A stretch of DNA of 64,000 nt from the NCBI RefSeq assembly GCF_026914265.1, contig NC_069124.1, forward strand, positions 73,206,902-73,270,901, in the 5' to 3' direction. Below the pieces are notes generated by a model, which saw only the letters and a list, made by a program, of their open reading frames with translations, made no database searches and was not told where the DNA came from. Below are positions 1-35,191 of the stretch, one piece after another (the stretch's first letter is position 1; each line of letters opens with the position of its first letter). Source of the stretch: Mya arenaria (lineage: Eukaryota; Mollusca; Bivalvia; Myida; Myidae). A program made the translations under genes and the position numbers.

Positions 1-758
1 ATTGGGTCAAATTAAAAGCAAATAAGTTGGAAATGCTAACTGTAATATTGCAACATTGCAATATTGATGTTACAATATTTGTGCTTAAAACACTAAGTGT
101 CACAGAAAAGATACAAATTCTATCATTGCACAGTGAAAATACACCCAAAAGTGAAAAAACTTCATTTACATGTTTTTTCCGACAAGATCATATTCAATAC
201 ACAATTTTAGTTACATGGTTACAATTTGTTTTAAAATCGCATTGTTCAAATTGAAAATACATCTACACAAACTTATACATACAAAGAGCAACAGTATATA
301 CATTCTTACTCATAATTGTCCTTACGATTTTTTTCAAATTACTAAACAACAATCAAATGGAATATCACCGTTTTATCAAGATTCAAAGTCAATCATATTT
401 GTTCATCTCTAAATGTCACAATAAATACCTTCTTATTACATTACACTTTTGTAAGGATACAATGGTTTGGTTGATTATACTTTAATATGTATTCCACCAC
501 AAACATCTGTTAGGTCAGATAAATCATATATAGTCAATCAGAAGTTCTAAACTTCCATCATTTTATATGACTGTCATAACATTTCTTTTATCTTGTGTAT
601 GTGTTTGTATTATGCTCTTCACTGAATAAAGTTTTTTTTACCATTATTCAGTGAAAAGTTGCTCCATCAAATTAAATTCCCTCCTTTGTTAGAAGTTATT
701 CACTCCACTTCCGTCACATCATAATTATTTCTCTCCTACTCCACTATCAGGGGAGCAG
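1..758. other. 3' flank of the SCAMP gene
   Basis: No gene is recognised here. The stretch lies just downstream of the SCAMP stop codon on the minus strand and probably holds its 3' UTR plus intergenic DNA. It is AT-rich and the short open frames have no recognisable protein content. I did not find a clear minus-strand AATAAA poly(A) signal. Confidence 0.5.
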
Positions 759-3700
759 TTAGTATTTCCCACCAGTACCATACTGGGAAGCAGCTCCCCT
801 GACGGCCCCTTGGGCTGCAGACGATGCAGCGTTGGATACGCCCTGCTGTACTGCCTCGTTCTTCATCACTCCAGTCGCAAACTCCTGCTGCGCCTTGGCA
901 AAACTGGCCCCTGTGCTCCGGTATATACGGTGGACCTGGGTGGATATATGAAAGGGTTTTATTTGGTGACAGTAAAACACTGCTTAAGGAAATAATAAGT
1001 TAACAAGTTTTAAAAGACTATTCTTTGAAGTGATGTATGCTCCCTGATGGGGTTCTAATTCAGAGAAGAAAGTTCAATTTGTGAAATATTACTTTGCAAG
1101 TTTTTTTTTGTTTAATCTACAAGTTATACATAATAACACAAGGGAGGTGACTGTGGGTAGAAACACAATCACCATCACTTCAGTTCAATGTTGAGAGGAT
1201 TTATGTCAATTGATGTTGAAATCAATTATGGAAAAAAAGAGCAGAAACAAACAATTTGAAAGAGTAGAGCAATTTGGAGATGGGGCAGCCACAGACTGCC
1301 GTATCTCTGCTGAAATAAGTACAGATAAATCTTAAGAGTCTGAGACACATGAAGGTAATTCATAAGAATCTGCACTAGACAAAAAAGGTAGATGAACAAA
1401 AGACAATCATGTTTAAGTTCTAAAAACAGAGTTATGGTTCTTGTTCGAATTTTTCTTCTTGCATTACGGTCCAGGCAAGCATCTATTAATGCATACTGTT
1501 AAAATAAAGGGAGGTTATTCAGCATTGAAAAGCTAAGATTACAGTCCTTGCACACTGCAATTGTGCATATTGCCCTCTGTTTTTGTTTTAACAATCTTAA
1601 GTTATTCTCCAGAAAGACAAAGCGGCATCTAAGTGCTCACATTTTGGGAAGCATGAACATCTCAACTTTTGATTTATATTTCTAAAGTTTGGTTTTGATT
1701 ACAAACAGAAAAAACTACAGTTGAATTTTAAAACATGTGTAACATTTAGGCACAAATGTTAAGAGCAATCTGTCAAGAGTAAAACTCTTATGAAAATGAA
1801 GTTATTTATGTTGATAACAATAACATGCACATATTTTGGAAAACAAAATCAACATGAAAGATAAAGTATAAACTTCTTTATAAGTGCCAATCAAACAACC
1901 AAAGATGGTAAGTAGAGCTAACCCTATGTACCTTACTTTAAAGGATCAAATATTTCGAGGCAAAGAAATGATGTTTCACGAAACAAGACAGTTAAATATA
2001 ATCAATAGAAGCTGTTGGAATGTATGATCACGGTTACATGAATAACAGCAAAATGAAATGCAATGCTAGTATATCAGTTACTATGGCAACTACACATGTA
2101 GACTGCAATTAATCCTTTTCGTTACAAATCAACTTTTTTACAAAATAAACTAATGATAAAACTTATTTAATGTTATACTTATAGAACTAATATTAACGAA
2201 ACTGCTCCTTTCAGCCTACCTTTATTAGCATTACTATAGATACCACAGCAGTAATGGTGAAAAATAAGGAAACAACCAACATCACCAATCCCGCGGCCAG
2301 ATTACCACCAATAGTCTTCAAAGAATTGATCCAGCCTCTACAAAAACATAGTAACAAAGTGCACAATAGGTGGACAGGGGTTCAATTTGAGGGCGACGCT
2401 TTACAACACAGAGGCGAAATATATGTATGTGTGATACACAAACGAAACAAATGTCCCAGTTCTGGTGATGTTGAATTTCCTACAGTGTAAGCAGAAATTA
2501 GGATTAAAGGAAAATGATATATGTCTAAAAGCTGAAAAATAAGCATACAGTTAATTTAAGTTGACTCTGATTAATAATCAGACATAAAAAGCGAAGCAAA
2601 GCTTTTAAACATGCAAGAATAACAAACTAGACCCTTCAGAAACAACTTGGTCAATACTGATTTGGAGCATTCACTTCAGATAGTGATTTCATGTCATTCA
2701 GATTCACAAAAGTCAGAGAAGAGCACACTTACAGCCTCAAGATAAAAAGACATTTAAACAGTTAATAATAATTCCATGATGCCAGTTGTTTGTTTTTCAT
2801 TCTTCATGTGTACACGAAAAGGAGTTGCATTCCATTAAGTTGTAGAGTCAGATGCCTAGGAGCACAGCCATCTATCTATACCTTTACAAGCATAACTATA
2901 TCCATTATGGAACAAATCAGGAAGAGTGTGGCCACTACCATCATAAATGCTGCCGCGCTTTTACTAGTTTTCAATATCTTTAGTGCATTGATCCAACCTC
3001 TACAAAAACAAAAGTGCAATTCAAGCTACTGACGAATATTACTGGTTGTAACAAAGATTAATAATGTGTATAGATGCACAAGAATTTCCCAATACGAGGA
3101 TTCATTTTATACATTTGAACAGGATCCACACTTATTTCAAGCCGTGCTTTGCTATGGTCCAGTCTGTTCCAAAAACTGCTGGTGTTACGGTTAAATTTAG
3201 ATGAACTTTACACCTTTTACTATGAATTGCTACCCAACCAAGTCTTGTGCATAAAATCAAAATGGCAACAAAAGCTTCACAGCAGTTAACAGTGCAGCAA
3301 CAAGGGTAAATGCATCAATGAATCATACATCAAGCAGGGCTTCTGTATTTACCTTAACTAACATGAACATTTTCACGCCACTAATAACAGACAGGAAGAA
3401 CGCCACTATAAGCATGAAAATGCCCGCACCAAGGTGTTTTCCTATAGTTCTCAGACCATTTATCCAGCCTCTGTAACATGCAGGAGACAAAATGGTCATT
3501 AATAGATAGTCTATTCCCATTCCAAATAACAGTGGCAGAGCTACTTTTGGAAATCACCTTAAACCTTTGCTTCGAAATTACAACTGATCGACAACTTGGT
3601 ATGGATTAAATAATCTAAACTAAACCTGTGCAAAATAAAACAAAAAAGCATAATAACTAGTGAAAAAATACTGAAATCAACATTGCTTTACAGTATGGCA

Positions 3701-6700
3701 ATTCTGTATGTCAAGCCTTTTAAAAAAATCATGGAAGTTTTCTTGCAGATGTTGTTTTGGTATTTATTGTAAAGACTGCCTCAATTGTTATTATCATATG
3801 TTGGTCTGGTTCTTTGGTCTCAGTATTTTTTTGAATGTTAATGAAAATAAATAGAATGATGTAACAGCACCTGAAACAAAAAAATACCAAACTTAAACCA
3901 CATGCATTATCATGGGAAGCATGCATTGTTTCCTTCCTGGAACATGGACATATCCCTGTGCTTTAACAGGTAGGAAATTAGAATAGTTTTTGTCATGTGT
4001 AATGACATTTAAAACAACCAGCCACAGTTGTGAATGCACAGAAACATGTCCAGTGAAACCTACTCCAGGTCCTGCCACCAAACTGAGTTGCTCTTCCTAA
4101 CATATATGTGTGCATACCGGTAGTCATAATGATGGGCTTAAATAGCATTTAAGAAAAATTATCCGACAATGAAAACTTTTATATTCTGATGCCATACTTA
4201 TGGTATTTTTTTAGGTGAAAGACCGTGTACATGTGGTTCAAAATTGAGGCTGGAAATACTAACTGTGATGACAGAAGTGACATCGTGCTGTGAATCATAA
4301 TATCCATGCAAACAAAACAACGGGAAACCAAACTTAATGAGCTAAAGAGCAACTCAGTTTCTGACATCCAGTATCAAACATGCAACAATAGGGGTGTTCC
4401 AGGATGATCACCGTGACAACCCAGATGCCATGACAACATCTCCACGGTTACCTTGCACAGCAACACCAGCATAAGAGTCGCTAAAGCACCAAAAAATATT
4501 CCAACTAGTATCATTATAAGTCCCACAACGACATTCTGGCCCACAACACGGAGTCCTCCGATAATGCCTCTGAAAATGGGTGACAAAATGTTAACAATTA
4601 GTAAAATTTATTTGAACATTTCATACATATGTACAGAACAACTTACAACACTTTTGAGAGGATAATGTGTTTTAATAAGCATGCTATGTCTTTGTTAAAT
4701 CAAACAATATATTTCTTGTGATTAGGTACAATTTTTGGCAAGTGAATATGAATATCCTCACAAATACTCCAACAGCTATCAAGGTAGATTTTTTCCAACA
4801 TAAATAAAGCTGTAAATCATTCATCTAAATGTAGATAACAGCTAATCAACACTTGCATCATAATGAACTTTTCAAACAAACAATATATATTTATATATAC
4901 AGTAATACCAGATAGCATATATCCTCTATGCTGACTGGCTGTGTCATTCTGTACCAACAAAAGTTAATTACAAAATAAATATAATAATACTCAGGTAATA
5001 TAAGCTTGAGTCATGTTTTAATCTCAACCTCCAAACCACTCATGGTCAATGATCAATATAATAGCTTTTATCAAGATAAAAGTGTTTATTACATGTTTTT
5101 CATTTTAAAGCGTGATAAAAATAATTCCATTATTGATGTTTGAGATTCTGCTGAATATTTTACATTGAAAAGGAAGAAAATGGCTCATACTTACACTGAA
5201 AAGTCAGTGATTCCCAAACACATCAGGACGCACACACAAAATTGGAAGAAAAATATGAAGAAGAATACAAAGAAGTTGAACGAGCTATCACTCCTGAAAA
5301 GACACAATAGCAAGCATAAGATATAATAGGCACAATAGCATGTATAATAATTTAAACAATAGTACTGCAGATTTATCGCCAACATCCATCTAGTTTCTAG
5401 TTAAAAAAGGGTCCAAGTTTTTGCACAACTACAATGCCCACAACACCAAGGCTATGACAATGCCAAGACTTTTTTTCTTTGAAGAACAGACAAGCTAAAA
5501 ATTTGTATAAGTCTAAATACTAAAGCAGATGAAAATTATAAATGCTTGATGCACCTATTACACAATTGTTTTATGTATTTTTCTCTTTTTTTATGACAGT
5601 CTTAATCAATTAACAATTAAAGTTTATTTGATACATTTTTAACATCATTGTGACAAAAGCTGAAAACTTTAATTATGCTTGACTGTTATTCTTGGAAAGA
5701 AACCAGAACGTCCTATCAGAAGTGATCATTGCGTGAGAGACAGACACATAAATCACTTCATCCTTAAAGTGTGACACATGACAATATCATATAAGTACTC
5801 TGTGCCATGAAAAAAAATTATTTTTGCAAATCAGCAAATACATGTAAAATGAAAGTACAAAATTATATCATAGCTTGGTGACCTGTACATTACCTGAAGG
5901 CCTTGTAGACGGGCCTGTACCAGCAGATGAAAGAGCAGGGAGTGAATAGAATGAACCAGAGGATGGAGAGCCCAAAGGTCGGGCCGCCATTAGAGTCCAC
6001 TATGAAATACGCCATGCTGCCCATGAAGTTGAGAAACAATGTGAACGCATAAACTGAAAAATAGAAATATTTATTCGGACAGTTTAAAAATGCCAGTAAC
6101 TCAGTTGAAAAATCCTTTAAAACAGGCTTGTGAATTGTGATCAGATTTAAAACATTAATGTATCTTTTTGGAATCAGGCTTTATATCTTTTATATCTATT
6201 TTATTTATCAACTATCTGACAAAATGCAGATCTATCATAAATGTAAGCAATGCTGTTGCCATCAAATATGATAAAATGCAAACATGTTTGCAATACAAAA
6301 CTACTTACACATCCATATATAATAAATAATTTTGACAGTTCTTTGGAATTCTAGTGGAATATCGACTGAAAAGTCTTGGTAGAAGCATGGTCCAACTGGA
6401 AACCAGCCTGGCAGAGGGGGCCAGTTGTTCTGTCGGTCTGAAATACATAACCAGAAACAAATGTAAGTAGTCCAGAACATAAACATACAAGGTTAGATGT
6501 TCCATTGTACAGAATTAATTGTATTTTAATTTCATCTATTCCATGTTGAATGCTGATTTTTGTTAAACCTTTTAGAACTTAATTAAATAATGCTTTGTTT
6601 ACTTCGGCTGTGCAATACAAGCATTGAAAGGAATCTTCCAGAATTCACATCCTTCAAATAGTATGTAAATGTGTGCATACAAATGTACCTTTTCCCCAAA

Positions 6701-9700
6701 TATTCATACATTTCTTATTAACAAATAGCTTCGTTTGAAAGTTTTTGCCAATGACAGCTGATCACGAGCAACTCATTTGTGTTACAAACTTGTATAGATC
6801 GATAGATGTATTGATGTATAGATGTACGATGAGTCACTTAATTGACTTTAGAAAGCACATAAAAGTAATTACTGCATCCAACTGTGTGTGAATTGGGCAT
6901 AGTATACAACTTTACCTTGAAATTGCATGTTTTTCATTTCCTGTTCTTTTCTTGCCAATTCCTCTGCTTTCTTTTCAAGCTCCTGTTAAAAGTACAATGA
7001 ACATTGCCTTAGAAACGTTAACTAACAAGGGAAGAAACTGTTCTGGTTAGTCCCATATTTGGGTTTCCTGATACACAGTCTATTACAGCTGCAAATTTTC
7101 AATATTAAATTGATTAGACAAATACAAGACCTTTTTCAGATTACCAGAAACTTACTGCCTTTAATTCATTTATTTATATTATTTTGTAACAACAACTTGT
7201 TACCATTTCAAACAAGAGATGTTTGTCAAACATTATGCCCCCCCTGAGCGCCATGTTGTCAGGATTATATGGACAATTGAATGAAATATGCATGGACCGA
7301 AATGACAGCTGATTTGTTGCTGTTTTAAGATTATGACCATTAAAGTGTGAGGATAAAGTGTGTTATGACCGTCATGACCTTTGACTCTATGAACTCAAAA
7401 TCCAGAGTCATTAGCTGGTCACCAGAAACCTAAATGTCAAGTTTGAGGGCCATGGGTGCAGGCATTGTCAAGTTATCAAAAGACAAGTTTTTTTCGTTCA
7501 AGGTCACTGTGACCTTGACCTTTGACCCGATGACCCCTTAAATCATAAGGGGTCATCTACAAGTCAGATGCAACTCCAAGTCAAGTTTGAAGGCCATGGG
7601 TTCAGGCATTGTTGAGTTATCACTCGGACAACCTTTTACCATTCAAGATCACTGTGACCTTGACCTTTGGCTCTATGAATCCTAAAATCAATAAGGGTGA
7701 TCTACTGGTCAGGCTTAACATCCATGTCAAGTTTAATGATCATAGGTTCAGGCATTGTTGAGATATCATTGGGGGAAGATTTGTTAACTTTTTTGCATTA
7801 AAGGCTACTGTGACATTGACCTTGGCCTGATGACCCCCAAAGTCGATAGGGGTCATCTACTTGGCAGGCCCAACCTTCATGTCAAGTTTGAATACCATAG
7901 GTCCAAAAATTGCCGAGTTTGCTTTCAAGGTCACTGTGACCTTGACCTTTGACCCCTAAAATCAATAGGGGTCATCTACTGGTCAGGCCCAACCTCCATG
8001 TCAAGTTTGAGGGCCATGGGTGCAGGCATTGTTGAGTTATCACTTGGACAACCTTTTACCATTCAAGGTCACTGTGACCTTGACCTTTGGCCCAATGACC
8101 CCCAAAAATAATAGGGGTCATCTACTGGTCAGGCCCAACCTCCAAGTCAAGTTTGAGGGCCATGGGTGCAGGCATTGTTGAGTTATCACTCGAACAACCT
8201 TTTACCATTCAAGGTCACTGTGACCTTGACCTTTGACCCATTGCGCCCAAAAAACAATAGGGGTCAGCTACTGGTCAGGCCCAACCTCCAAGTCAAGTTT
8301 GAGGGCCATGGGTGCAGGCATTGTCACGTTATCACTCGGACAACCTTTTACCATTCAAGGTCACTGTGACCTTGACCTTTGGCCTGATGACCCCCAAAAA
8401 CAATAGGGGTCATCTACTGGTCAGGCCCAACCTCCATGTCAAGTTTGAGGGCCATGGGTGCAGGCATTGTTGAGTTATCACTCGGACAAGCTTTAAAATT
8501 ATTTTACCATTAAAGGTCACTGTGACCTTGACCTTTGACCCGATGACCCCCAAAATCAATAGGGGTCATCTACTGGTCAGGCCCAACCTTCATGTGAAGT
8601 TTGATGACCATACGTCCAGGAATTGTTGAGTTATCACTCGGACAAGCTTTGGTCTACCGACGGACCGACCAACCGACATGCCTGTGCAAAGCAATATACC
8701 CCTCTTCTTCGAAGGGGGGCATAATAAGCTTTTCATTGGCATACTGTTTAATTTGGATGCCAGGTGACCTCATTTTTTTAATTTTTTTTGGAATCGGTCC
8801 TTGGATAAAATATATTTATTCAAAACAGTAGATGTTTTTCGCTTTAAAAAGGTGTTTGCGAGTACCTGTTGTCTCCTCTCAAGCTCCGAGGTGTCGATAC
8901 GCTGGGCAGAGCTCTGTGTGTAAGGGGGCGGGGCGTCAGATGACGGCTGCATGATGGCTGGTGAAGACTGGGGTGGGGGAATAGTTGGCTGTCCTGCCTG
9001 CAATTACAACCAACATATTCAAATAAAAGTTTTATAAAACAGGAGAATGTGTTTTATTATAATGTTTGTAGATTTTTTTTTCTGTTTAATGTTACTGTTT
9101 ATTCAGAAATGTAAATACATTGTGTAAAATTATGAAAAAGGCTTCTCAAAAACTAGAATACACTTCAAAAGGAATGGCCAGAACTTGATATCAATGCAAT
9201 AAATTAGGGTTGTGTACTTATATTTTTATGTGCAATTTGTGGCAGTGTAAAAAGTGCATTTTGCAAATGGAACATGTAAGTGATTTAAATTGTCCTAAAA
9301 TTTCTGTGTTTTTTTTCCAATTTTATTTTGATAACATTTTGCATTGCATGTCAAATGAGTTCTTGATAAAATATAAAAGTTTGAATTGTTTCTGAACAAA
9401 TGGAGAAGACAGCAAGCATATAAAATAGGCTTTCATTAAAATAGAGCAAGGAATGCTTATTTCTAAAATGTCCCATATTATTTTTTTACAATTCATATCC
9501 CTATTCAGGCTTTCAAAACAGTGCCAGGGTTTCCACCAGGCCTTTATGGCTTGTCAGGCTTGACACACCTTCCACAGGCAAGGCTAATTACTGACACAGG
9601 TTAATATCAATATCTTATCAAAACAATCATGAATTTTGACAATACACGTTTTTGCTGTTATTGCAATGACTGACATCGGAAGGCATGCCTGGAGTATGAC

Positions 9701-12700
9701 GGTATTTGTATCAGCTATAGCTATCTAGGTTCAACGAAAGCCAAAGAATTGACAGCACAGTGTACCCAGTGGCGGATCCAGGTTTCTCAGTTGGGGGGGG
9801 GGGGGGGGGGGGGGTAACTTTTGAAATTGACTTCTGTTGGCCGCTTAAGGCCCCCATGTGTTTTCATGGTAATTCAGGGGGTCGGAGGCCTTCGCGACGG
9901 CCTCAAGCTCTTAAACTATTGCATGTGTTTACTATGGAACGCCGGGGCTCAATGCGTTATGCAAATGCTATATATAGAACAATAGTTTCATTTTCGACCA
10001 ATCGAATGGCCGGGTACGGAATTACGGAAGCTCGTGCTATGTGAAATCTAAATATAGTAACACCTCCTGAATAACGGATTTCCTTCGCATCTCGCATGAA
10101 GCATTTTAAAATCATTTAGCATCTCGCATTTTGCACAAAAATCATTTCCCAAAAAGCATTTCGCATATGGCATAACACAATCAAATTGAATCGGACGAAA
10201 TATTGTGCACGTTCCGAACTGCTCCCGGCAGTGAAGGGGATGTATGACATAGGCTACTGATACTGCTACAGAAATATTATTATACGGTGGAAGAAACTAT
10301 ACTCTTTCTAACCTAACGCGTTTACAGCAATATACAGAGTTGCACATATTGCTATTCGCAATCTAACTGTTCGCAATCTAACTGACTTTCTGGCATATTT
10401 TCTCTAGGACACCTCTTTACTTTACCGTTTCTGAATATTATATTGTATTGGTGTGTTTATATATGTTATTCTAATGAATAGACACAACAAACGTATTATT
10501 TTTCACCTCTATTACATGCAGATAAGAGTATTTTTCAAATTTATGTGTTCCTTTTTTCATTTCATACAAAATGATTCTGCTCAATTTATGCTAACAACGG
10601 TAAAAAATATTGAATCGAAGCTTTTCGCATTTCGCATTAAGCAATTCGCATAAAGCATTAAGCGTTTTGCAAAAAACATTAAGCATTATGCAAAAAGCAT
10701 GAAGTATTTCGCAAGAAGCATTGCGCCCCGGCGTTCCATAGTTTACACTGTTTTTACAAAGCTTGAACTGCGAGAGACACTTTGTAACGTAGTAACCCCG
10801 TTAAGCTGATCGTCACCTCCCTATAGATCAAGTTTTTTTCCCCGCATAAATTAAAAGACCTTGGTAAAATTGCATACAGTTACTGGGCAAACTTTAATGT
10901 TTGTTCAGTGACACCGAGTGAAAGTGTCTGCTTTAAGCAAGTAGTCCGCTGAATTCTCATGTATTTGATCTATTAAGTTAATCTTGTTTCATATTATCGG
11001 ATTTGGTGAAAATGTAACCGGATTGCTAAACGGTTTGGATCAGGAATAGAAGCCGAGTTACTCGGTGTCTGATCCGGATCCAATCTGGTTGACGACATCA
11101 CTACGGTCGCTATCGGCATGCTTAGGGTTACAAACAAAACTTTATCGAAATTACCCATTTACTTCATAGATACGCATGTATTAGCATTTCGAGCTTCATA
11201 GATACGCATGTATTAGCATCTCGAGCAGATAGAAATTGACGCCATAGTGGGAAAAAATTTTTTTTATGAGTTTAAATGAATTGCCTCTCGTAAATTGTCC
11301 CTTACCGCTATAAACAGTGTTGACCCTTATCATATCGGGGCGACCATAGTAAACGGAGGATAGCCAAACGCTAACACATTCTACTGAATACGTCATAATA
11401 GATAAGTTAATCGATAAGAGCGTTCCACAACGTCTCGGACCAATTATGTTTCGTAATAGTCCAATGTGGCCAAATAGATGTTCGATACAACCACGGTAAA
11501 TCGAGATCTATTTTTTTGTGTGGAGCAAATCATAACCTTAAAAGCTATCTACAATGATGGAACGATATTAATAATTTATACATATACTTGGAAAATTTTA
11601 GGGGGGGCCCGCGCCGGGTCCGTCCCCCCTGGATCCGCCTATGGTACCCCAACTCTTTCTTAACTTTATCATAACAGGAAGGTGTGAAAAACATCACTGT
11701 CGTAACTGGGACCTTTATCCTATAATCACTTATGATTGCAAAGTTACCACTAGTTGTTAATTGATTTGGGTAACATAAAATGTGTGTCAAATTATTTTGT
11801 TTATCGATCCAAATTCCTTTTCGTAGTTGTCCTTTTGTACTTCTAATTGAGACATGGGTGAAGAAAAGATGATACCTTTCATTCTTCTTCTTATTTTGAA
11901 TAATAAATATATATAGATCTGAAAAGACACAATCAAATTCCCATATTATTTAGCCGATCCACTTTAAGAATAATGAGCTGTTGCAGCTTTTAAAATACCC
12001 ACATGAAGTCGCCTTTTATGAAAAGATAAAGGCTGTGGTATCATCGAAGCAATTTTGATCATTTTACCAAACCTCTTACTGGAATCAACCTAGCTTTCAT
12101 AATTTACATGCTTCAGGCTCTATTGTGTTCCTGCATGAAGACATCGGGTTTTACACATATTGCTGTGATGTCAACACTCAACAGTGACAACATAAACAAT
12201 ACCCTTTAATTTGTAGAATTGTCGGAATACATGTACTTAAAAATATCCAAGAATTAATGGAGAGAAAATCTGCGGAGGGATGAGACATTCAAGAACTTTC
12301 CCCTCATGACACGCCTTATGAAATTTCTGGCAGAAACCCTGAGTGCAATAACAAAGAGTAAACAAATAATCAAAGCATTAATATAGCATTAATATTTCTT
12401 AGGATTAAGGAGAGGATGGCATGGCTGGTATATGGTACTGTTGAATTTATATGTACCCAGTACCTGATCTGAAAGTAAACCTGCCTTTTCTTCCTGAAAG
12501 CATACACATTAAAAAAATAGAAGACATAAATTCATGGTTACTTGTTATTTTTCATAACAATTTATCAATAATCAATTGAGAGTACAGTACAGTCCACTCC
12601 ACGCGAAACTTCCACTTTCCTCAGTTACTCTGCTGTTTTACATGTAAATCCTGAAAGCACTGAGTAAGTAACCTGTTTTCAGCTCTAAAATTTTCTAGTT

Positions 12701-15700
12701 TCTATTCTCATTATTTCTTAAGTTGTGATACATTACATTTGTGTTTCCCCGTGTAATAGTTTCATTGCATTGATAATTATTACGTTATAAAGGTATGAAG
12801 GTAACTCATGTTCAGAGGTTAAGTGAAAAACTGCCGATTTAAAGCTATTTTCTCACAGATTTACCATGGTTACAACTTTTTTATACTGTTTTGTCTTGGA
12901 AAGAGCAAATTTTGTGTAAATATCTGTAAACCAATGATATTATATTGCTGACAAAAAAGATCAGATCGCAGAATTTTATATTTCCATTCGAAAATGTTTT
13001 ATGGCTTAAACCATTACTAAAGGTTTGAGAAATAGGCATAAAAATTTGAATATAAAAATCTGCATTCTAATGTTTTGTCAGCAGTCTTATATAACTGCCT
13101 TCCATGGATTTTCACAAAAATTCGCTCATTCCAAGACAAAAAATAAAAAAATTGTCAAAATGTTCAATCTGTGAGAGTGCAGCTTTAATCTGTCAATACT
13201 TATTGTCTAATTAAACCCCCTTTTGTTCAAATAAATATAATTTGGCTTTTAATTGAAATGTTTTGTGAAAATAACAGTGTAATTATGATAATTGTATATT
13301 TTTCTATTTAGACCAATAACTTCCTAGTTAAAAATGGAAATTATTAGTATATAAATCAATATAGTAACGGGCAGTATGAAAGTCACGTGCTATGCAAATT
13401 TTGTAGTGCAGGCTAAATTTAGTTAACGCGATAAATGCAGTTTATTGTTATCAAACTGGGAATTAAAAAATGTCAAAAAGGTTAAGAGAAGTCATTTGGA
13501 TATACATACCAAAAAAATAAGTTACATTACTGGCCAATCCACTTTTTTTGCATAGTTTCACAATTTTTAAATCTCAGAGTAATGCGATGCTTGTAATTCT
13601 TCAGTCCACTGAACGACGCAGGGAGAGTGTAAATGCCAAGGACAGAGGATGTCGTCAAATTACATTTCATGTCTGTGCTGACAAAAATTTGCAAAGAAGC
13701 TTTAAGTGAGTGTCACAAGGAATGTATCATAACAGTAAAATCCGCCATTTATGCTTTCCTACATTAAAACCTACACCTAAATTACACTGCATGTCTTATG
13801 CACCAGTCAATTGTAACCACAGCTCCCCAGGTCCCCAGGCGGTGGTTTTGTCTTCACTCCAAATTTAGCTGGAAATTGGCCTTATCTAGGGTCCCTTGGG
13901 TGCGGGGCAGATTGTCCCCGCAGGGCGGAGACTTTGCCCGGGCTTGGCTGGACCAAAAGTCAAAGTCCCCGCTATTCCCCGGACCTGGGGGTGGGGGGGG
14001 GGGGGGCATGGTTACAAATGACTGGTGCATTACAAGAACAAGCACATAAAAAGTTAAACCCTACCCCTGCTGCTGGTCTTGTCTGATTATCCTCAGCAAA
14101 AGGGTTGTAATCGTCTAGACCAGCTTGTCTCTGGCCACCACCTCTAGCTTGCTGCACTGATGGGTCCTGTAAAACCAATATACCAACCAATGCATTCTCA
14201 CATCAACAGTTAGCACTACAGCGAAGGAACTCTTCTTATCTCGAGCTAATACAGGGCTTTTTCACCTTCTTTGCTAAGGGCCAAAATTAGGCTACTTCAC
14301 AATTGGGAAAAATGGCATATTTTCCCAATTTCCAGATATTTTTTTCACAGTTCCCAGATATTTTTCCCAAAAAGGAAGATCTTACTTCAAAATTTTACAA
14401 TAAAAATTTATTTGTTTGAGCAAATCATTCTTTTTATCTTTTAAGTTGACATACAAAGAATGCTATATATTTTAAACGTTAATCCAGGACAAATTAGTCC
14501 ATAAAATTATATTGTTATCAATTCTTTCCCTCGATTTAGAATCAACTCTATGAAGATTAAAACTAATCTCTCTCCCTTTCTTGTCATTGCGTCATGTTAA
14601 AAAAGCGAAGTCAAAGACATGCTTTCTCCCCCAATAAGATCTACATGTGTATCAATTGGAAGTTCATACATTTTAGACCTTTCAAGCTTTACCCTGTGGA
14701 GTGTTTGTACACATTTCATATTAAAAAGTTATAATTAAAAAAAAAATCAGCTAGAAGTAGACTCACATGTAAGATATGAGCCCGTTTTTTTGTAACATGA
14801 GTTCCAAGTTTCATATGGATACCTTGACCCAAGTTTAAAAGGTGTCTTCAATCCTCATATGTGGAATTTCCCATTTTGAGACATTTACACACATAAATTA
14901 TTTCCAAATTTGCAGAATTTCATACTGGTTAAGAAGCAGTTTCCGACAGTTTTTACAAGTGTTTATTGATTTATTCATACGTGTTAAAATTCCTACTAAA
15001 ATTGTTTACATTTTAGATAACTACAGCTCAAGCTGCTATTGTCGATATATTTTGCACATGTGTGACGTCACTTATAGTGTATCTAATGGGGGCGCCAAGA
15101 GGGTACTTACACTGTTCTGATTAGCTGTTGACGAGAAGCAGTTTCCGACAAATCAAATACGCGGCAAATTTTAGGTGCCTAGTGTGTGTTTTTATCCATT
15201 TATTTAATATACTAAATAGAAGACTACAGTACGATAACTATTATTTAATTTTTCAGCATTTACCAAAATTAAAACCTAAAAACTTACGCCAGTCAATCAT
15301 CATACTGGAAATCAGGCAGACACTAAATATCAATGATATTTTGTTTCATTTCAAATAAGAACTTGTGTTTGTAATCATTTAAGTGAATGTGGGTGTGAAA
15401 CTAGCATGACAACAGTGTTCGCAAATATGTACATAATGATCATCGTTTGTATAAGTCAATTAAGGACAACCTTGTAGCTATTCATAGATATGCAAATTGG
15501 GTTCACACGCATGCGCAATGCGCTGCGCGTGACGATCCCCCACGTGCAAGTTTGTGTACAAATTGAAAAATAAACATTAAACATTAAATAATAATAAAAG
15601 TTATTTACGTGTCTCGGTAAAAACTTCCAACTTTTGATTGCCTAGTATAATTAAATTACAATACCTTCTTTATGAAGATCAAAAGAAAGTACCCGAAAAA

Positions 15701-16236
15701 GCAATTTGTCGGAAACTGCTTTCCGTCGGAAACTGCTTCTCAACCAGTAGTTTAAATTTCCCAAAATGAAAAGGCTAGGCCTCTTCACAATTTTTGGTGA
15801 AAAAGCCCTGTATTCTGTTGACAAATCGTTTGGCTAAAACAGTTGTACTTAAACTTACAACTGTATCTATGTAACAAGTATATGTGTATTTCAAATGTGT
15901 ATCCAAAATACAAATTTCAGCAATGAACATGTACTTACAATTTAGTGGAATGTAGCCTTTTAAGAAGGAGGGGTAGTAATTGTTTGAGAACAATTAATTC
16001 CGATTTACTAATACTTTGATTTGTCAATGTGTATAACTAATAACAGTATGAAACTGTAAAAATATCTCCTTATTGATTCATGAATGCATACCATACTCTA
16101 CTCCGCATAAATTATCGATTACAACGCTTGGAATTATAAAAATAAACAGGAAAACACCGGTTGGTGTAAAACTAACTGAGAAAGGATTTACAGCCTCCGG
16201 ATCGGCAAATGGATTACTGTCAAATCCGTCCGACAT
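759..16236 (-). CDS. SCAMP: Secretory carrier membrane protein (SCAMP), ten coding positions
   Basis: SCAMPs are four-helix membrane proteins of post-Golgi and endosomal recycling carriers that act in exocytosis and endocytosis. Exons in transcript order: 16192-16236, 14065-14166, 12464-12493 (optional), 8866-8997, 6916-6982, 6309-6437, 5894-6053, 5195-5293, one of four alternatives (4452-4569, 3353-3470, 2882-2999, 2220-2337), and 759-935. With one alternative this gives 352 aa, against 338 for human SCAMP1. The N-terminus has NPF motifs at residues 8-10 and 36-38 (EH-domain ligands), then a proline-rich stretch and a charged helix. The core NNWPPLP...[13 protein letters not shown] is clear, as is the [15 protein letters not shown] cytosolic loop peptide between TM2 and TM3. 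The C-terminus has the family signature [17 protein letters not shown]. All exon phases agree. The start is the only ATG giving the MSD...NPFADP family N-terminus. The introns carry many transposons. Confidence 0.95.
2220..2337 (-). CDS. SCAMP alternative exon 9d (TM4)
   Basis: Fourth tandem version and nearest to the last exon, 118 nt, with acceptor TTTTTGTAG|AGG and donor AAAG|GTAGGC. It encodes [17 protein letters not shown], then a TM helix ending VMLIK. This version and 9b look closest to the vertebrate SCAMP1 segment (GWISSL...VGIMM), so one of them is likely the ancestral form. Confidence 0.88.
2882..2999 (-). CDS. SCAMP alternative exon 9c (TM4)
   Basis: Third tandem version, 118 nt, with acceptor TTTTTGTAG|AGG and donor AAAG|GTATAG and the same phases. 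It encodes [18 protein letters not shown] and then a TM helix ending VMLVK. It differs from the others by a Lys/Ser-rich loop (KTSKS) and an Asp near the end of the helix (SIMDIVML). Its acceptor context is almost the same as that of 9d, which suggests these two are the most recent duplicates. Confidence 0.85.
3353..3470 (-). CDS. SCAMP alternative exon 9b (TM4)
   Basis: Second tandem version, 118 nt, with acceptor TTACAG|AGG and donor AAG|GTAAAT and the same phases as the other copies. It encodes [17 protein letters not shown] followed by a TM helix ending FMLVK. The GWI motif of the family is kept. A Lys lies within the helix stretch (SGVKMFM). Confidence 0.88.
4452..4569 (-). CDS. SCAMP alternative exon 9a (TM4)
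   Basis: First of four tandem versions of the exon encoding the last luminal loop and TM4. It has acceptor TTTTCAG|AGG and donor AAG|GTAACC and is 118 nt. Entered in phase 2 from exon 8 and left in phase 0, it encodes 40 residues including the split first codon: [17 protein letters not shown], then a hydrophobic helix ending LLCK. It is the most divergent copy at the start. The Trp of the conserved GWI motif is replaced by Ile, and the helix ends in Cys-Lys. Confidence 0.85.
7212..8727. repeat. Interspersed element with ~145-bp tandem units carrying AGGTCA palindromes (copy 1)
   Basis: Eight tandem units of mostly 138-156 bp (one 126) lie between unique ends. The shared core reads caaggtcactgtgacctt, with gggtcatctactggtcaggc and caagtttgagggccatgg further along the unit. 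The left end (cattatgcccccc) is the inverse of the right end (ggggggcataat), so the whole behaves as one element. The unit core AGGTCA-CTG-TGACCT is a perfect palindrome at 7501, 7928, 8066, 8212, 8358 and 8514. The element sits in the SCAMP intron between exons 4 and 5. It is reminiscent of bivalve elements with internal tandem repeats (pearl-type or Helitron-like), but the class is not proven. Confidence 0.85.
9933..10740. mobile_element. Nested non-autonomous DNA transposon, TATGGAACGCCGGGGC termini
   Basis: The ends are inverted copies of tatggaacgccgggg. The 6-bp sequence GTTTAC is present on both sides (9927-9932 and 10741-10746). Both subterminal zones are packed with short gcat-ttcgcat style repeats, a pattern often bound by transposases. 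There is no coding capacity. It is inserted in the 9767-11643 element, so it is the younger of the two. Confidence 0.75.
11162..11225. repeat. 32-bp tandem duplication
   Basis: Two adjacent near-identical copies of cttcatagatacgcatgta-ttagcat-tcgag with a 32-bp period. It is a local duplication inside the transposon at 9767-11643, with no coding meaning. Confidence 0.85.
12464..12493 (-). CDS. Candidate SCAMP micro-exon 3 (10 codons)
   Basis: A 30-nt segment encoding [10 protein letters not shown], flanked by a pyrimidine-rich CTTTCAG acceptor and a GTACTG donor. It lies between exons 2 and 4 and is phase 0 on both sides, so it can be included or skipped without a frame change. It falls in the variable proline-rich cytosolic linker, where SCAMPs differ in length. 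It is supported by splice signals and frame only; transcripts would decide. Confidence 0.55.
12590..12630. mobile_element. Fragment of a CAGT(A/C)CACTCC-type transposon end
   Basis: The sequence cagtccactccacgcgaaac followed by ttccactttcctc closely matches the terminal inverted repeat of the complete element at 27910-29416. Only one end is recognisable here, so this is a truncated or decayed copy. It is preceded by TA, as is the complete element. Confidence 0.6.
12839..13189. mobile_element. Palindromic MITE with TTAAAGC ends
   Basis: The left arm (taaagctattttctcacag) and right arm (ctgtgagagtgcagcttta) are imperfect inverted repeats. The similarity continues inward through a tttgtcttgga(a/t)(a/t)gagc block on both arms. 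TTAA occurs at both borders. The layout is that of a foldback MITE; TTAA borders would fit a piggyBac-type insertion. The class is inferred. Confidence 0.7.
13798..14030. mobile_element. Short MITE, TGCACCAGTCA termini, copy 1
   Basis: It begins tgcaccagtcaattgtaacc and ends in the inverse ggttacaaatgactggtgca, with TTA on both sides. The interior is GC-rich with a G run near the right end. A related element (37750-38304) lies in an intron of the coiled-coil gene. This copy ends only about 35 bp from the donor of SCAMP exon 2. Confidence 0.8.
14250..15812. mobile_element. DNA transposon, TA-CAGGGCTTTTTCACC termini, with nested element
   Basis: The left tacagggctttttcacc and the right ggtgaaaaagccctgta are perfect inverses, flanked by TA. 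The match extends in weaker form inward (ttcacaatt). A separate element at 14925-15747 splits it. No transposase is visible. It lies in SCAMP intron 1. Confidence 0.75.
14925..15747. mobile_element. Nested DNA transposon, TA-CTGGTT(A/G)AGAAGCAG termini
   Basis: The ends are ctggttaagaagcagtttcc and its inverse ggaaactgcttctcaaccag, with TA on both sides (14923-14924 and 15748-15749). Extra copies of the subterminal gaagcagtttccgac motif occur at about 15135 and, inverted, near 15710. It is non-autonomous and inserted inside the 14250-15812 element. Confidence 0.78.
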
Positions 16237-16914
16237 CTTTGTGAATAATTCCTGTTCAGGTTATCAGTAAACAAATCGAAAACAATGAATTATTGCGTTT
16301 GACAATTTGTTTTGGTTTGTGAGGTGTCCAAAATCAATGGCTGCTTACTTCCGCACTATAGTTACGCATGCGCAAATAGCAATCATCACATGGCTTTTAC
16401 GTCACATACAAATCATCGTCAGCAGTTCTTATGTTTTACAATAGAATATCTCCGAAATTACATTTTGAAACGTCGAGCATTCCGAAATATTTATATAGTA
16501 ATAGCAAAATGGGACATGATATTATATAAATTGGTATCAAAAGTGATAGCATGTTATCAAACTTGTTATGTAACTGTACTGTATAGTCACTATAGTGTAG
16601 TATAGATCTATCGATCTGTACCAGTACAGTTTAGTATTAATATTTTAAAAAAATACGTCGTTCATGTTCTATTATTTTATTTTTTAACACTGTCAATAAT
16701 AACCATCAAGTACCGATAACGTATTTTTGCGTATGAGCGCAATTAACCGGTGGCTAAAATAAGTTAGAGATATACTGTACATGATATAGTAGGGGGGGTC
16801 AAGTACTATCAACAAAACAAGCCAATCTAGACTTACTCAACGCATTCATTACTCTTACTGTCCCCATTTATTGTGATATTCGAGAGTACATTTTCGGAAC
16901 ACACACGCACTTCC

Positions 16915-16975
16915 AGGCAGCCATGACCCCGCCCGCATCCGGCCCCGCCTAAGCCGCGGTGACAGGCGTGCAGAG
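16915..16975. promoter_or_regulatory. GC-rich patch with GC boxes upstream of SCAMP
   Basis: A short island in AT-rich DNA contains accccgcccgc and ggccccgcct motifs (Sp1/KLF-like GC boxes) and several CpG. It lies about 700 bp upstream of the SCAMP start codon. It may be a promoter element, but position and composition are the only evidence. Confidence 0.3.
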
Positions 16976-17820
16976 CTAATGATCGTTCTCCAAAATATCG
17001 CCAATGTAGAAAAGGGTTTTTTGAATATATTTTGCAACTTGTTTTTGTTTAATTTAAAACAAACGTCGTGAATCGCTATTTTTTTTTAAATAGTATTTTT
17101 TGTTAATTAATTGCTAACCGGGTACTATATACCATTCGTATTAAGCGTTTATCCGTGGTCGATTTGGAAACGCGCTAGAATTGTAATCCATACAGTTCCA
17201 CACCCGCTCCAGAATTGCTAGCAAATCGGCGGCCTCAAACTACAGAGGTCGCATTGGTATAACACGTAAAAAAAGAACCAGTGGTGTGTCTGAAACTGGG
17301 ATGCATTCTGTAAATTAATACTAGGTCGTTTCTTAAATCCGTAATTTGTGACTAGTGTTCACAGGAAGTTTAAATATTTGACCACACTTGAAATTGTTCG
17401 TAGTTTAACATTGTTGACCGGTAATGGATGTTGAAGAGTTGATCAGTTCTCAGAGAATGGAATAGAATTGCGTTACAGTATTTGAAAACAAAAAAACTCG
17501 AACTAGATTTAATAACTTCCACACTTTTTCGGATACCGAACTCGTTCCACACGGAGACGCATGCATTGACTAAACTATGTCCAGTTCCGCGAATGCTGAG
17601 CTTGACCTATGAGTATCGGTCAGCCAGATCATTTGCGAAATTGCATCTTATTTTAAGCATTCTTCTCTCGTTTTGTTCAGCCTTAAAATATCATCTGTCT
17701 TACACTTCAGGGGAAACTGTTCGCGAAAAATAGAAATCTTCAACTTTTAAACAATCACAGAGCTTAAAAGATCGCATTCGATACTTATTCGATCGATACT
17801 CATTTATTTTATTTGACTTT

Positions 17821-20850: not shown

Positions 20851-30393
<9,543 letters not shown>

Positions 30394-32277: not shown

Positions 32278-33020
32278 GGACACATATTGCAACACTCAAG
32301 TCATCGACCCTGTATTGCTTTATCGACCCGTTGATAATCCACTATGATTTTATTTTGGGGTCCTATTTAGGCAAAATGTGACTAAAGGTTCTTCAATATT
32401 CCAATGCGTGTTTGATTTATATAACGGACCTGAAATGCAAGGATTTAAAACTTGACTGACCAATCACTTGGAACTGGCGAGGTTTCGAATGGGGTTGTAG
32501 GGGAAATAGAGCAGACACGAAACGGACAAAATAATACTTGGCTGAATTACCGAGGGCTTTAATATGTACACGTAATCCCTCTAAACGCGATCACCCATTA
32601 CTAAATTGCAATGTGGACCTACATTATATTCTCATGCAGAAATTTCGTCATATGTTACCGGTCGGTCAGAATTAATCCAGCCCATGTATAGAGTAAAACA
32701 ATCATGAAAGGCTTTCAAAGTATGACTTGGACTGATTTTCAAAAGCGAGTTAAGTTGTTAGTATTCTACAATTTGAATAAAACAAACTGTTGTCAATTTA
32801 TTTATACTTTATCTATATATCTGCAAACGCACTGAAAGAGTAAAACAAAAGGTCCATATTGAACAACAATAGTGTATCAGATAAGTGAAACGTTACACTT
32901 TTTACCAAAGTGACATTTATAAAAACAATTAAGGATCCAATTACATACCTTTAACAATCACTGTGCTCGATATATTATAAACTCTATAATTGCTAATAAC
33001 CTTATTCATATTTAATTAAC

Positions 33021-35191
33021 ATGGGGAAGAAAACTAATAAAAAGCAACCCAAAGCACTTGGCGTTGATGGGCTGGAATTGTTCGACATTACATGTTTCTC
33101 ATGCAAAAAGAACCAGAAGAATATTCAAGATGGAAAATTTCATTGCAGATTCTGTGGGGTTATGTGTGAAAACTGTGCCGGTGAACATCAAAAGACACCA
33201 AAGAAGTCTGGCCATTGGGCTGACAAAATAAAGCTTCTCAGTCACTATGAACCGCCAGAAATACCAACGTTTCATCATGTGAATAAGTGTGAAATCCATT
33301 CTAAACGCCGAATCAAGTCTTACTGTTTGGACCACGGCGCCTTGTGTTGCAAGGAATGCGTACGAGACTTTCATGCGGACTGTGTAGTGGAAGAATTGCA
33401 TGTGATGTGTGAAAATATCTCGAAAGAAAGGGATATTGTTGAAGCTAGGAATGAGCTCACAGACTTGAAACGGAGGTCAAATATGACAGCGAACTCAAAG
33501 AAGAAAGAAATCGTCCGAATGGCTAAGCAAGCGGCGGACTTCGAGACTTATGTTAAAGAACTACGCGAGAAGATCAACATGATGTTTGACAATATGGTAG
33601 CTGCTATTTTAAAAGAAAAAGAGGAGTTTTGCAAAGCCGAAACCGAACTTATCCTTAAAGATGTCGAAAAGCTGGACAATATTATTCCAATCGTCGACAC
33701 TGCAAGTAAAAGTCTTAACCAGGCTTTTTCGGAAGGAAAAAGGGAAGGTATGTGGATAGCTATGAAAAAAGTAGAAGCCGTGTTGACACATTACGACGAG
33801 GATGTAACGAATATTGAAAATGATAAAAACGAGGTGAAATTTCAGTTTATTGCCAATGCAAGTTTGCAGGGTATTCTTGGAGCACCAGAGAATATGGGCC
33901 GATTGAAAATAACATCTTCGCGATTACATGGAAAAAACACCGATATGATTCCAAGAAAGATTGAACAGAATCCTGAGAGGAACTCAAGATTTAAACCCCC
34001 GTGGTCCGGTATGTGCCGTTTATTAGAATTATAAACAAGAATTGATCGCTGTCCTCTTTGTTTGCGCAATACGGTATGTTGATTGACTAATAATACCGTC
34101 AGTACGATTGTTGTTGTTGTTTTTCTTCAGGGAAAGCACAGAAGCAGAATGATACACCATGGATGACAAGCACGAATCTACACAGTCACGCACGAACTCA
34201 ATTGCCAGATTTGGTGACCAACCAATCAAGGCCAAGCAGTCAGGATGGTCATAAGACTACTAAAAGGACGGTCATGACGCGTACACCAGTTGGGCTGTAT
34301 ACACCAAAAGAAGGCACAAGGACAGAAAGAAAATATGGTTTCATAAATGATCCTACAAATAAAGTAAGAGGCGATATGTTTGGACCGACAAAAGATGTGA
34401 AGTTGACATACATTGGTCGTAAGGAGATAATGGCTGATGCTGATCCTGAGCTAACGTCTATAACTGCATCGGCATTCCTTCCTAACGGCAGACTTGTTCT
34501 TGTTGACAATCACAACAAAACACTAAAATTATTTAGTGCTGCATATGAGTTTTTGGCCGGCGTTGTTCTCGATGAGCGACCCTGGAATGTCACTAGCTGC
34601 TACAAAACAGTAGTTGCGGTGTCATACCCATACGACAAATCTGTTGAAATAATTACGACGGGTATGGAAATGAAAATTGACGGGAAGATAAAGACTGATC
34701 GTCCATGCCATGGAATGGGATTTCATAAAGTTGAAAAATGGTTATACATAGTCTGTGGTTCTGGAAAAGATGCCCAAATTCAAGCCTACTCTCTTGATGG
34801 TTATCTTCGAAAAGTAATAATTCCAAAAGTAGGGGTCCTTCATGAGCCTTGTTACCTCGTCATGACATCGGACAGTTCTAGGTTGTTCATTTCCGATCTT
34901 GAAAACGGCATTGTCGGGTTTGACACTAGGCGCGGCGATGTCATATGCCAGTACAAAGATCCCAACATTCAGAAATACTGGGACCTGAAGATTGATTCAG
35001 ACGGGCGCCTGTTTGTGGTGACCACGGACCCGGACTGTATATACGTCTTGATGGGAGAGCACAATGGCCAGCTGGTGAAGGAGTTCCTGTCGGGAAACAA
35101 GCCTTGCTCCATTAGCTACAGTCCTGTTAACAAAGATTTGGTTGTTACACGATGGAAAGTTGAAGAATTAGAAGTGTTTCGATTTGTTTGA
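33021..35191 (+). CDS. RING-less TRIM-like protein: B-boxes, coiled coil, beta-propeller
   Basis: Two exons (33021-34008 and 34131-35191) join in phase 1 through donor TCCG|GTATGT and acceptor TTCTTCAG|GG to give 682 aa. Residues 25-65 hold a Cys/His cluster (C25, C28, C42, C45, C49, C52, H56, H65) like B-box 1. Residues 90-121 form B-box 2 (C90, H93, C102, C110, C113, H118). A long charged helix follows (about 125-280). After a linker, residues about 425-682 have repeated strand patterns (NGRLVLVDNHNKTLKLF, SSRLFISDLENGIVGFD, DGRLFVVTTDPDCIYVL) expected of an NHL/TRIM56-71-like beta-propeller. There is no N-terminal RING, so ligase activity cannot be assumed. Genes of this layout are numerous in bivalves and often linked to innate responses. 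An AATAAA lies at 35198 and another at 35463. The exact orthologue is unclear. Confidence 0.88.

Follow-up and report, generated by a model that had tools for sequence, protein, structure and literature searches.

A tandem array of four TM4 exons, very probably mutually exclusive, in the SCAMP gene of Mya arenaria

Can a single gene, by choosing among tandem copies of one exon, supply several versions of a membrane protein that differ in one helix? This question is raised by the SCAMP gene of the soft-shell clam, Mya arenaria, which lies on the minus strand of a 64-kb stretch of DNA (hereafter, the window; C3:73206902-73270901) from an assembly of 1.216 Gb in 18 contigs. SCAMPs are conserved four-helix membrane proteins of secretory vesicles, and in this gene the exon that encodes the last loop and the fourth transmembrane helix (TM4) is present in four versions (9A–9D). 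We regard it as highly probable that these versions, arranged in tandem, are mutually exclusive exons of the single SCAMP gene found in Mya. Exon 8 would join exactly one of 9A–9D, which would then join exon 10, and the product would be one of four 347-residue proteins (357 residues with an upstream cassette exon) that differ only in 39 residues of the last loop, a short helix, and TM4. Exon numbers 8, 9, and 10 are those of an initial annotation of the window, and the cassette is counted as exon 3; all gene coordinates given below are window positions on the minus strand.

Structure and reading frame of the exon array

The four copies, 9A (4452..4569), 9B (3353..3470), 9C (2882..2999), and 9D (2220..2337), are each exactly 118 nucleotides (nt) long, with AG ahead, AGG at the start, AAG at the end, and GT after, as the initial annotation had reported. 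It had also described all of them as versions of a GWI loop plus TM4, which is accurate for 9B–9D but not for 9A, which encodes GII. On the minus strand of the window there are 200 AG-118 nt-GT segments, 24 of which are open in the coding frame, and AGG...AAG ends occur in five of the 200: the four copies (all open) and one segment at 15782 that is closed by stops. The copies are adjacent and homologous and share the same length and phases (118 nt, phase 2 in, phase 0 out), the properties by which a mutually exclusive cluster is recognized.

Exon 8, which encodes the third transmembrane helix (TM3; 5195..5293, a single copy in the window), ends with two bases of a codon (phase 2 at 5195), and the last coding exon 10 (759..935, with the stop codon; placed by sequence and frame) begins a new codon (phase 0 at 935), both as first annotated. 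Because 118 equals 1 + 39 x 3, a single 118-nt exon fits between these phases. When the 16 exon-9 combinations were translated, the normal C-terminus was reached by the four single-copy combinations only, and all of the remaining 12 (zero, two, three, or four copies) led to a premature stop. Skipping of exon 9 adds 22 foreign residues before the stop, whereas any pair, any triple, or all four copies stop inside the second copy, 50 or 68 residues past exon 8, the second exon of any joined pair being read in a stop-containing frame. The earlier proposal that either one copy or all four would keep the frame is thus borne out for one; for four it holds in arithmetic only, given the stop in the second copy.

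Proteins for comparison came from a SCAMP protein search of a database clustered at 90% identity, of which the best 120 of 1923 matches were examined. Most of their exon-9 peptides belong to one of two classes, GII...GLIMIFVGIFF (A-type) and GWIN...MLFVALFF (D-type). Four of the 120 listed proteins were not parsed and the two Mya proteins were left out, so that 114 segments (26 A-type, 83 D-type, and five other) represent exon 9 of other species. Three hidden Markov models (HMMs) were built from such peptides, the A profile from 24 and the D profile from 29 distinct segments, all of proteins up to P0076 (from molluscs, two nemerteans, and a brachiopod). The HMMs match the four copies over positions 1–39 with E <= 2.3e-5 (9A over 3–39 with the D-type HMM). 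Exon 9A belongs to the GII class (50.9 bits with the A-type profile, 27.3 with the D-type), and 9D, 9B, and 9C belong to the GWI class (69.1, 60.7, and 53.2 bits with the D-type profile; 43.3, 21.0, and 27.0 with the A-type, respectively). The copies were assigned from splice ends, frame, and profiles, to which a tree adds for 9A, a single genome match for 9B, and the RefSeq protein P0001 (isoform X1) for 9D. Neither further copies nor remnants were found in the 64 kb, where the next best of 2115 open reading frames (ORFs; at least 20 residues) reached E 0.19 with the three profiles.

Divergence and age of the copies

Between copies, 49–67 of 117 nt and 9–19 of 39 residues are identical. In each of the six copy pairs the proportion of synonymous differences (pS, 0.56–0.83) exceeds that of nonsynonymous differences (pN, 0.32–0.56); synonymous sites are at or near saturation, and length, frame, and splice ends are intact. 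Judged from the DNA, the array is real, old, and tandem. Given that both exon classes occur in gastropods, cephalopods, and bivalves, and that isoform pairs are annotated there, the A/D alternative probably predates the split of these three groups, and 9B and 9C look younger than the A/D pair (undated). Were this so, the TM4 alternative would be older than the cephalopod/gastropod/bivalve split, with an increase to four copies in Mya.

In a midpoint-rooted tree of 64 segments (58 selected from the 120 listed proteins, two from Nucella, and four from Mya), 9A clustered with the A-types of octopus, cuttlefish, gastropods, scallops, Pinctada, Mercenaria, and oysters. The A-type of the brachiopod Lingula stood outside these, and 9B, 9C, and 9D lay among bivalve D-types. 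Supports were 0.72–0.92 for clades of more than eight tips, the segments are short (the Ostrea segment P0049 is a further four residues short from parsing), and only the A/D division is trustworthy. The octopus D exon stood beside 9B, probably as a result of long-branch attraction.

Exon 9 alternatives in other molluscs

In relatives, alternative use of the two classes is seen as annotated isoforms. Exon 9 is the only difference between P0048 and P0050 of Octopus bimaculoides and between P0027 and P0055 of Saccostrea echinata, and the pairs compared from Physella, Ostrea, and Crassostrea/Magallana differ in exon 9 and, in addition, in the cassette, in exon 8, or at single residues. In Nucella, the model P0035 has an A-type copy followed by a D-type copy, the order found in Mya. 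A-type exons also stand singly in full-length ORFs with a longest contig of 1.7–3.5 kb (P0043, P0063, and P0067); if introns interrupt the gene in those species as well, these ORFs must derive from spliced RNA. The initial annotation had named decay of the copies in related species as evidence against their use, and for the A and D classes no such decay was seen.

Other parts of the protein also vary among isoforms. An alternative TM3 exon (exon 8) was observed in oysters, Mytilus edulis, and Pinctada (P0012/P0014, P0015/P0017, P0044/P0046, and P0036). In oyster models, two versions of exon 8 occur in combination with both classes of exon 9 (P0012, P0014, P0015, P0017, P0049, P0057, and P0058), the Mytilus edulis pair P0044/P0046 differs in exon 8 alone, and Ostrea isoforms X9 and X10 omit the TM3 exon in frame. 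A second TM3 exon of the oyster kind was not found in the Mya window (single match at E <= 0.5). In Branchiostoma floridae, P0117 (isoform X5) and P0120 (isoform X4) are the same except for a segment of about 50 residues around TM2, and their sequences suggest a third exon-swap site. It is conceivable, if rather doubtful, that SCAMP is a recurrent target of membrane-helix swaps in bilaterians, at TM4 in molluscs, at TM3 in oysters, mussels, and pearl oyster, and in the TM2 region in amphioxus.

Use of the copies in Mya

The D copy is present in the RefSeq protein P0001, which represents a cluster of six member sequences and to which the D isoform with the 30-nt cassette is identical (357/357 residues). 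All four isoforms match the Pfam SCAMP family (PF04144) over its full length (profile positions 1–172 of 172), with scores of 199.1 (A), 203.5 (B), 208.5 (C), and 209.5 bits (D) against a cut-off of 27. The GenBank model P0004 (Mya arenaria SCAM1-like) joins A (39/39 residues), B (35/39), and D; it lacks C and includes intron sequence following A. The model is an annotation error, yet it shows gene predictors treating the copies as exons. One-at-a-time use is supported by the frame logic, by frames and splice ends that are intact despite near-saturated divergence, and by the separate A and D isoforms of other molluscs, and we consider mutually exclusive use in Mya very likely. The initial claim that at least four SCAMPs are made is on this evidence supported in part, for the copies as one-at-a-time alternatives; among the listed proteins, the RefSeq record contains D only and none contains C, and B and C would at most be putative isoforms.

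Several results weigh against this reading. Exon 9C is absent from all 120 listed proteins, and 9B is present only as 35 of 39 residues in the faulty P0004. Searches keyed to A and to B plus C (strict E-value, short region) found no B or C orthologue and returned only P0004; clustering at 90% would merge isoforms that differ by 20–24 of 357 residues and hide most of them. Values of pN lie near pS for A–C (0.56 vs. 0.65) and A–D (0.52 vs. 0.65), and by this measure constraint between the A and D classes appears weak. A neutral copy would stay open with a probability of 0.26–0.42 at 1 to 0.5 changes per site (substitutions alone, no indels), and intact frames are therefore fair evidence for the whole set and weak evidence for any one copy. 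Searches of the 1.2-Gb genome gave no second SCAMP locus, all 10 protein matches and both Pfam matches falling inside this gene; this single-locus result is weakened by the fact that the same genome protein search missed 9A and 9C, so that a divergent second SCAMP gene is possible.

The alternative that survives best, although we think it unlikely, is that only the ancient pair 9A and 9D work and that 9B and 9C are lineage-specific duplicates, rarely used or decaying. The A and D classes extend across molluscs, and 9B and 9C lie on long branches, have no orthologue found, and in the case of 9C are absent even from the fused P0004; both nevertheless keep the exact length, the splice signals, an open frame, the GWIN start, and the Lys end, and score 60.7 (9B) and 53.2 bits (9C) with the D-type profile despite high synonymous divergence. 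The Lys of 9B and the Asp of 9C within TM4 also speak for this alternative, but charged residues (E, D, and K) are found at the same position, 33, in other species.

Much less probable is that the array serves mainly as a regulated off-switch, in which skipping or multiple inclusion gives unproductive mRNA and lowers SCAMP, with D as the main productive exon. The premature stops in all 12 other combinations are compatible with such a switch; a poison exon, however, would not have to conserve its coding sequence, whereas the copies are recognized by peptide profiles from other species, and octopus and Saccostrea have both versions annotated as full proteins. An assembly artefact or a set of pseudo-exons is barely credible: the structure is itself repeated and the fused P0004 shows that predictors stumble here, but the copies differ at 50–68 of 117 sites, 9B matches one place in the genome (DNA search, 9B only), and other molluscs have exons of the A and D classes as well.

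Splicing mechanism

Under mutually exclusive use of 9A–9D, we infer that the spliceosome selects one copy at a time. The introns between the copies measure 981 (9A–9B), 353 (9B–9C), and 544 nt (9C–9D), and all boundaries are GT-AG and U2-like by eye. Because the introns are 353–981 nt long and all sites are ordinary GT-AG, neither short-intron steric block nor incompatibility between U2 and U12 (minor-spliceosome) sites is likely to enforce the choice, and both were rejected as enforcing devices. Frame shifting with premature stops could do so (12 of 12 non-single combinations stop). Stops ahead of the last junction usually trigger nonsense-mediated decay, and with stops in every shifted frame this decay could police the whole array; the first device would accordingly be nonsense-mediated loss of every wrong combination (zero, two, three, or four copies).

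As a possible second device, selectors in the inter-copy introns may compete for one docking site (4944-4905) in intron 8, exposing one exon at a time. In PMC6071210, such docking/selector intronic pairing is called the major mechanism of mutually exclusive splicing. Intron 8 and the intron after 9D were scanned for 30-nt segments that pair with all three inter-copy introns. The candidate dock in intron 8 (4905..4944, one species) would pair through 4944-4915 with candidate selectors in intron 9A–9B (4013..4049, -27.0 kcal/mol), intron 9B–9C (3277..3314, -30.8 kcal/mol), and intron 9C–9D (2397..2426, -23.6 kcal/mol), and the three pairings overlap on the dock and would therefore exclude each other. 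Their sum, -81.4 kcal/mol, compares with a best of -73.8 in 60 shuffled-target runs and -74.6 in 100 natural triples from the same window. At 30 nt none of the 60 shuffles or 100 natural controls reached the sum, and at 40 nt none of 80. When opposite-strand or reversed versions were used, or when five other stretches of the gene's introns served as docks, the 30-nt sums ranged from -58.0 to -71.9.

Other observations speak against this pairing scheme. At 20 nt, the sum was reached by one of 80 controls. Among the three pairings, the weakest (-23.6) is close to that in shuffles (-23.5) and was reached by one of 100 natural controls. Off-target pairing of the dock is about as strong as its pairing with intron 9C–9D (-23.6): exon 9A gives -23.8, the downstream intron -23.1, the remainder of intron 8 -21.7, and exon 9B -21.5. 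The selectors also lie at unequal distances from their exons. The intron after 9D, taken as dock, gave no signal (58–62% of shuffles were as good). The docking site is thus a candidate, from one sequence, picked after a two-intron scan and without covariation. In the same region, intron 9A–9B contains a perfect 16-bp inverted repeat (4080-4095/4345-4360), which was rejected as a transposon end given that the 301-nt stretch around it has one genome match; predicted folding of the whole intron is no more stable than that of shuffled sequence (z 0.08). Rfam gave no match at gathering score in window positions 1-17000.

Position of exon 9 in the protein

The AlphaFold2 model of P0001 (57 sequences) has a mean predicted local distance difference test score (pLDDT) of 65.3 and a predicted template modelling score of 0.48, and its membrane part reaches a pLDDT of 78–95 by blocks. 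In this model, exon 9 (residues 261–299) would form a short helix (262–269) and the first half of a helix spanning 273–324 (TM4), with block pLDDT of 91–95. No solved relative was found by sequence search. Because the model had no PDB fold match at E <= 0.001, no structural partner is inferred.

Among 85 distinct ungapped segments from the listed proteins, the residues K, R, D, E, H, N, and Q occur within the stretch 17–37 of the exon-9 peptide only at positions 29 and 33. In Mya, position 33 is Met in A, Lys in B, Asp in C, and Ser in D, and the residue there may have a role of its own. If the array works as proposed, the residue at one position within the membrane would be neutral, positive, negative, or polar according to the TM4 version, and the likeliest use of the swap would be to tune contacts of SCAMP with the membrane or with partners by tissue or vesicle. 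Since TM4 alone would be exchanged and the rest of the protein kept identical, the gene would also offer a natural experiment on the role of TM4.

Remaining exons and neighbouring features

Upstream of exon 8, coding exon 1 (16177..16236) encodes 20 residues with a translation identical to Mya arenaria P0001, and exon 2 (14065..14166), exon 4 (8866..8997), exon 5 (6916..6982), exon 6 (6309..6437), and exon 7 (5894..6053, the TM2 region) match the same protein, which is completed by the cassette exon 3 (12464..12493; 30 nt, 10 residues). The cassette sequence has an ExxxLL pattern, which we take to be of the acidic-dileucine kind. SCAMP models with and without the cassette exist in relatives, e.g., Ruditapes P0006 and P0005, and an insert with a Leu-Leu pair is present at the cassette position in models of Ruditapes, Mercenaria, Dreissena, Pecten, oysters, and Mytilus. 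The intron between exons 4 and 5 contains tandem arrays (window 7436-8650) that repeat about every 146 nt. Beyond the gene, open frames at window 21181-22838 (minus strand) resemble a proteasomal AAA ATPase subunit, and two long open frames at 33000-35191 (plus strand) resemble a B-box/TRIM-type protein with a C-terminal repeat part, both judged by eye.

Comparison with known systems

Mutually exclusive exon arrays are already known as a kind, and the SCAMP case was not found described: among the open-licence papers listed in literature searches, none gave an account of such an array in SCAMPs. The initial annotation, which knew of no such cluster in SCAMPs, agrees with that literature, but database models of octopus, Physella, and oysters already record the A/D alternative. 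Nor was any paper found there that pairs 'mutually exclusive' with CG9195, presumably the fly gene number for SCAMP. The main text of the paper on fly SCAMP (PMC4235465) uses neither 'splice' nor 'alternative'.

Insect Dscam1 (exons 4, 6, 9, and 17), Mhc, 14-3-3 zeta, MRP, and C. elegans unc-32 likewise have tandem homologous exons of similar length, one of which enters each mRNA. In contrast to Dscam1-type clusters, the Mya array belongs to another gene family, its exon length is not a multiple of three, and its shifted frames carry stops even with four copies. For tandem duplicated exon substitutions in human and fly membrane proteins (PMC9741552), one case, Ca-alpha1T, is reported to be common to molluscs, and neither 'SCAMP' nor 'secretory carrier' appears in the main text of that paper. 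Oyster alternative oxidase, with a duplicated exon 10 (PMC5589949), is likewise a bivalve tandem exon duplication that gives two isoforms; it differs in that the exon is terminal with its own stop, an alternative 3' splice site is used, and there are two copies. According to its authors, that duplication may be unique to oysters (PMC5589949).

Vertebrate SCAMP1-5 belong to the same protein family and are diversified by separate genes (mammals have five SCAMPs, according to PMC4235465), whereas one SCAMP locus was found in Mya. Exon choice would here do what vertebrates do with several SCAMP genes, and, if this is the sole SCAMP gene, the replacement of gene duplication by exon choice is a plausible reason for the array. 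Should helix swapping prove recurrent, a single invertebrate SCAMP gene would amount to a combinatorial vesicle-identity code where vertebrates use separate genes. In the Mya array, exon duplication seems to take the place of gene duplication, and every wrong combination carries a premature stop.

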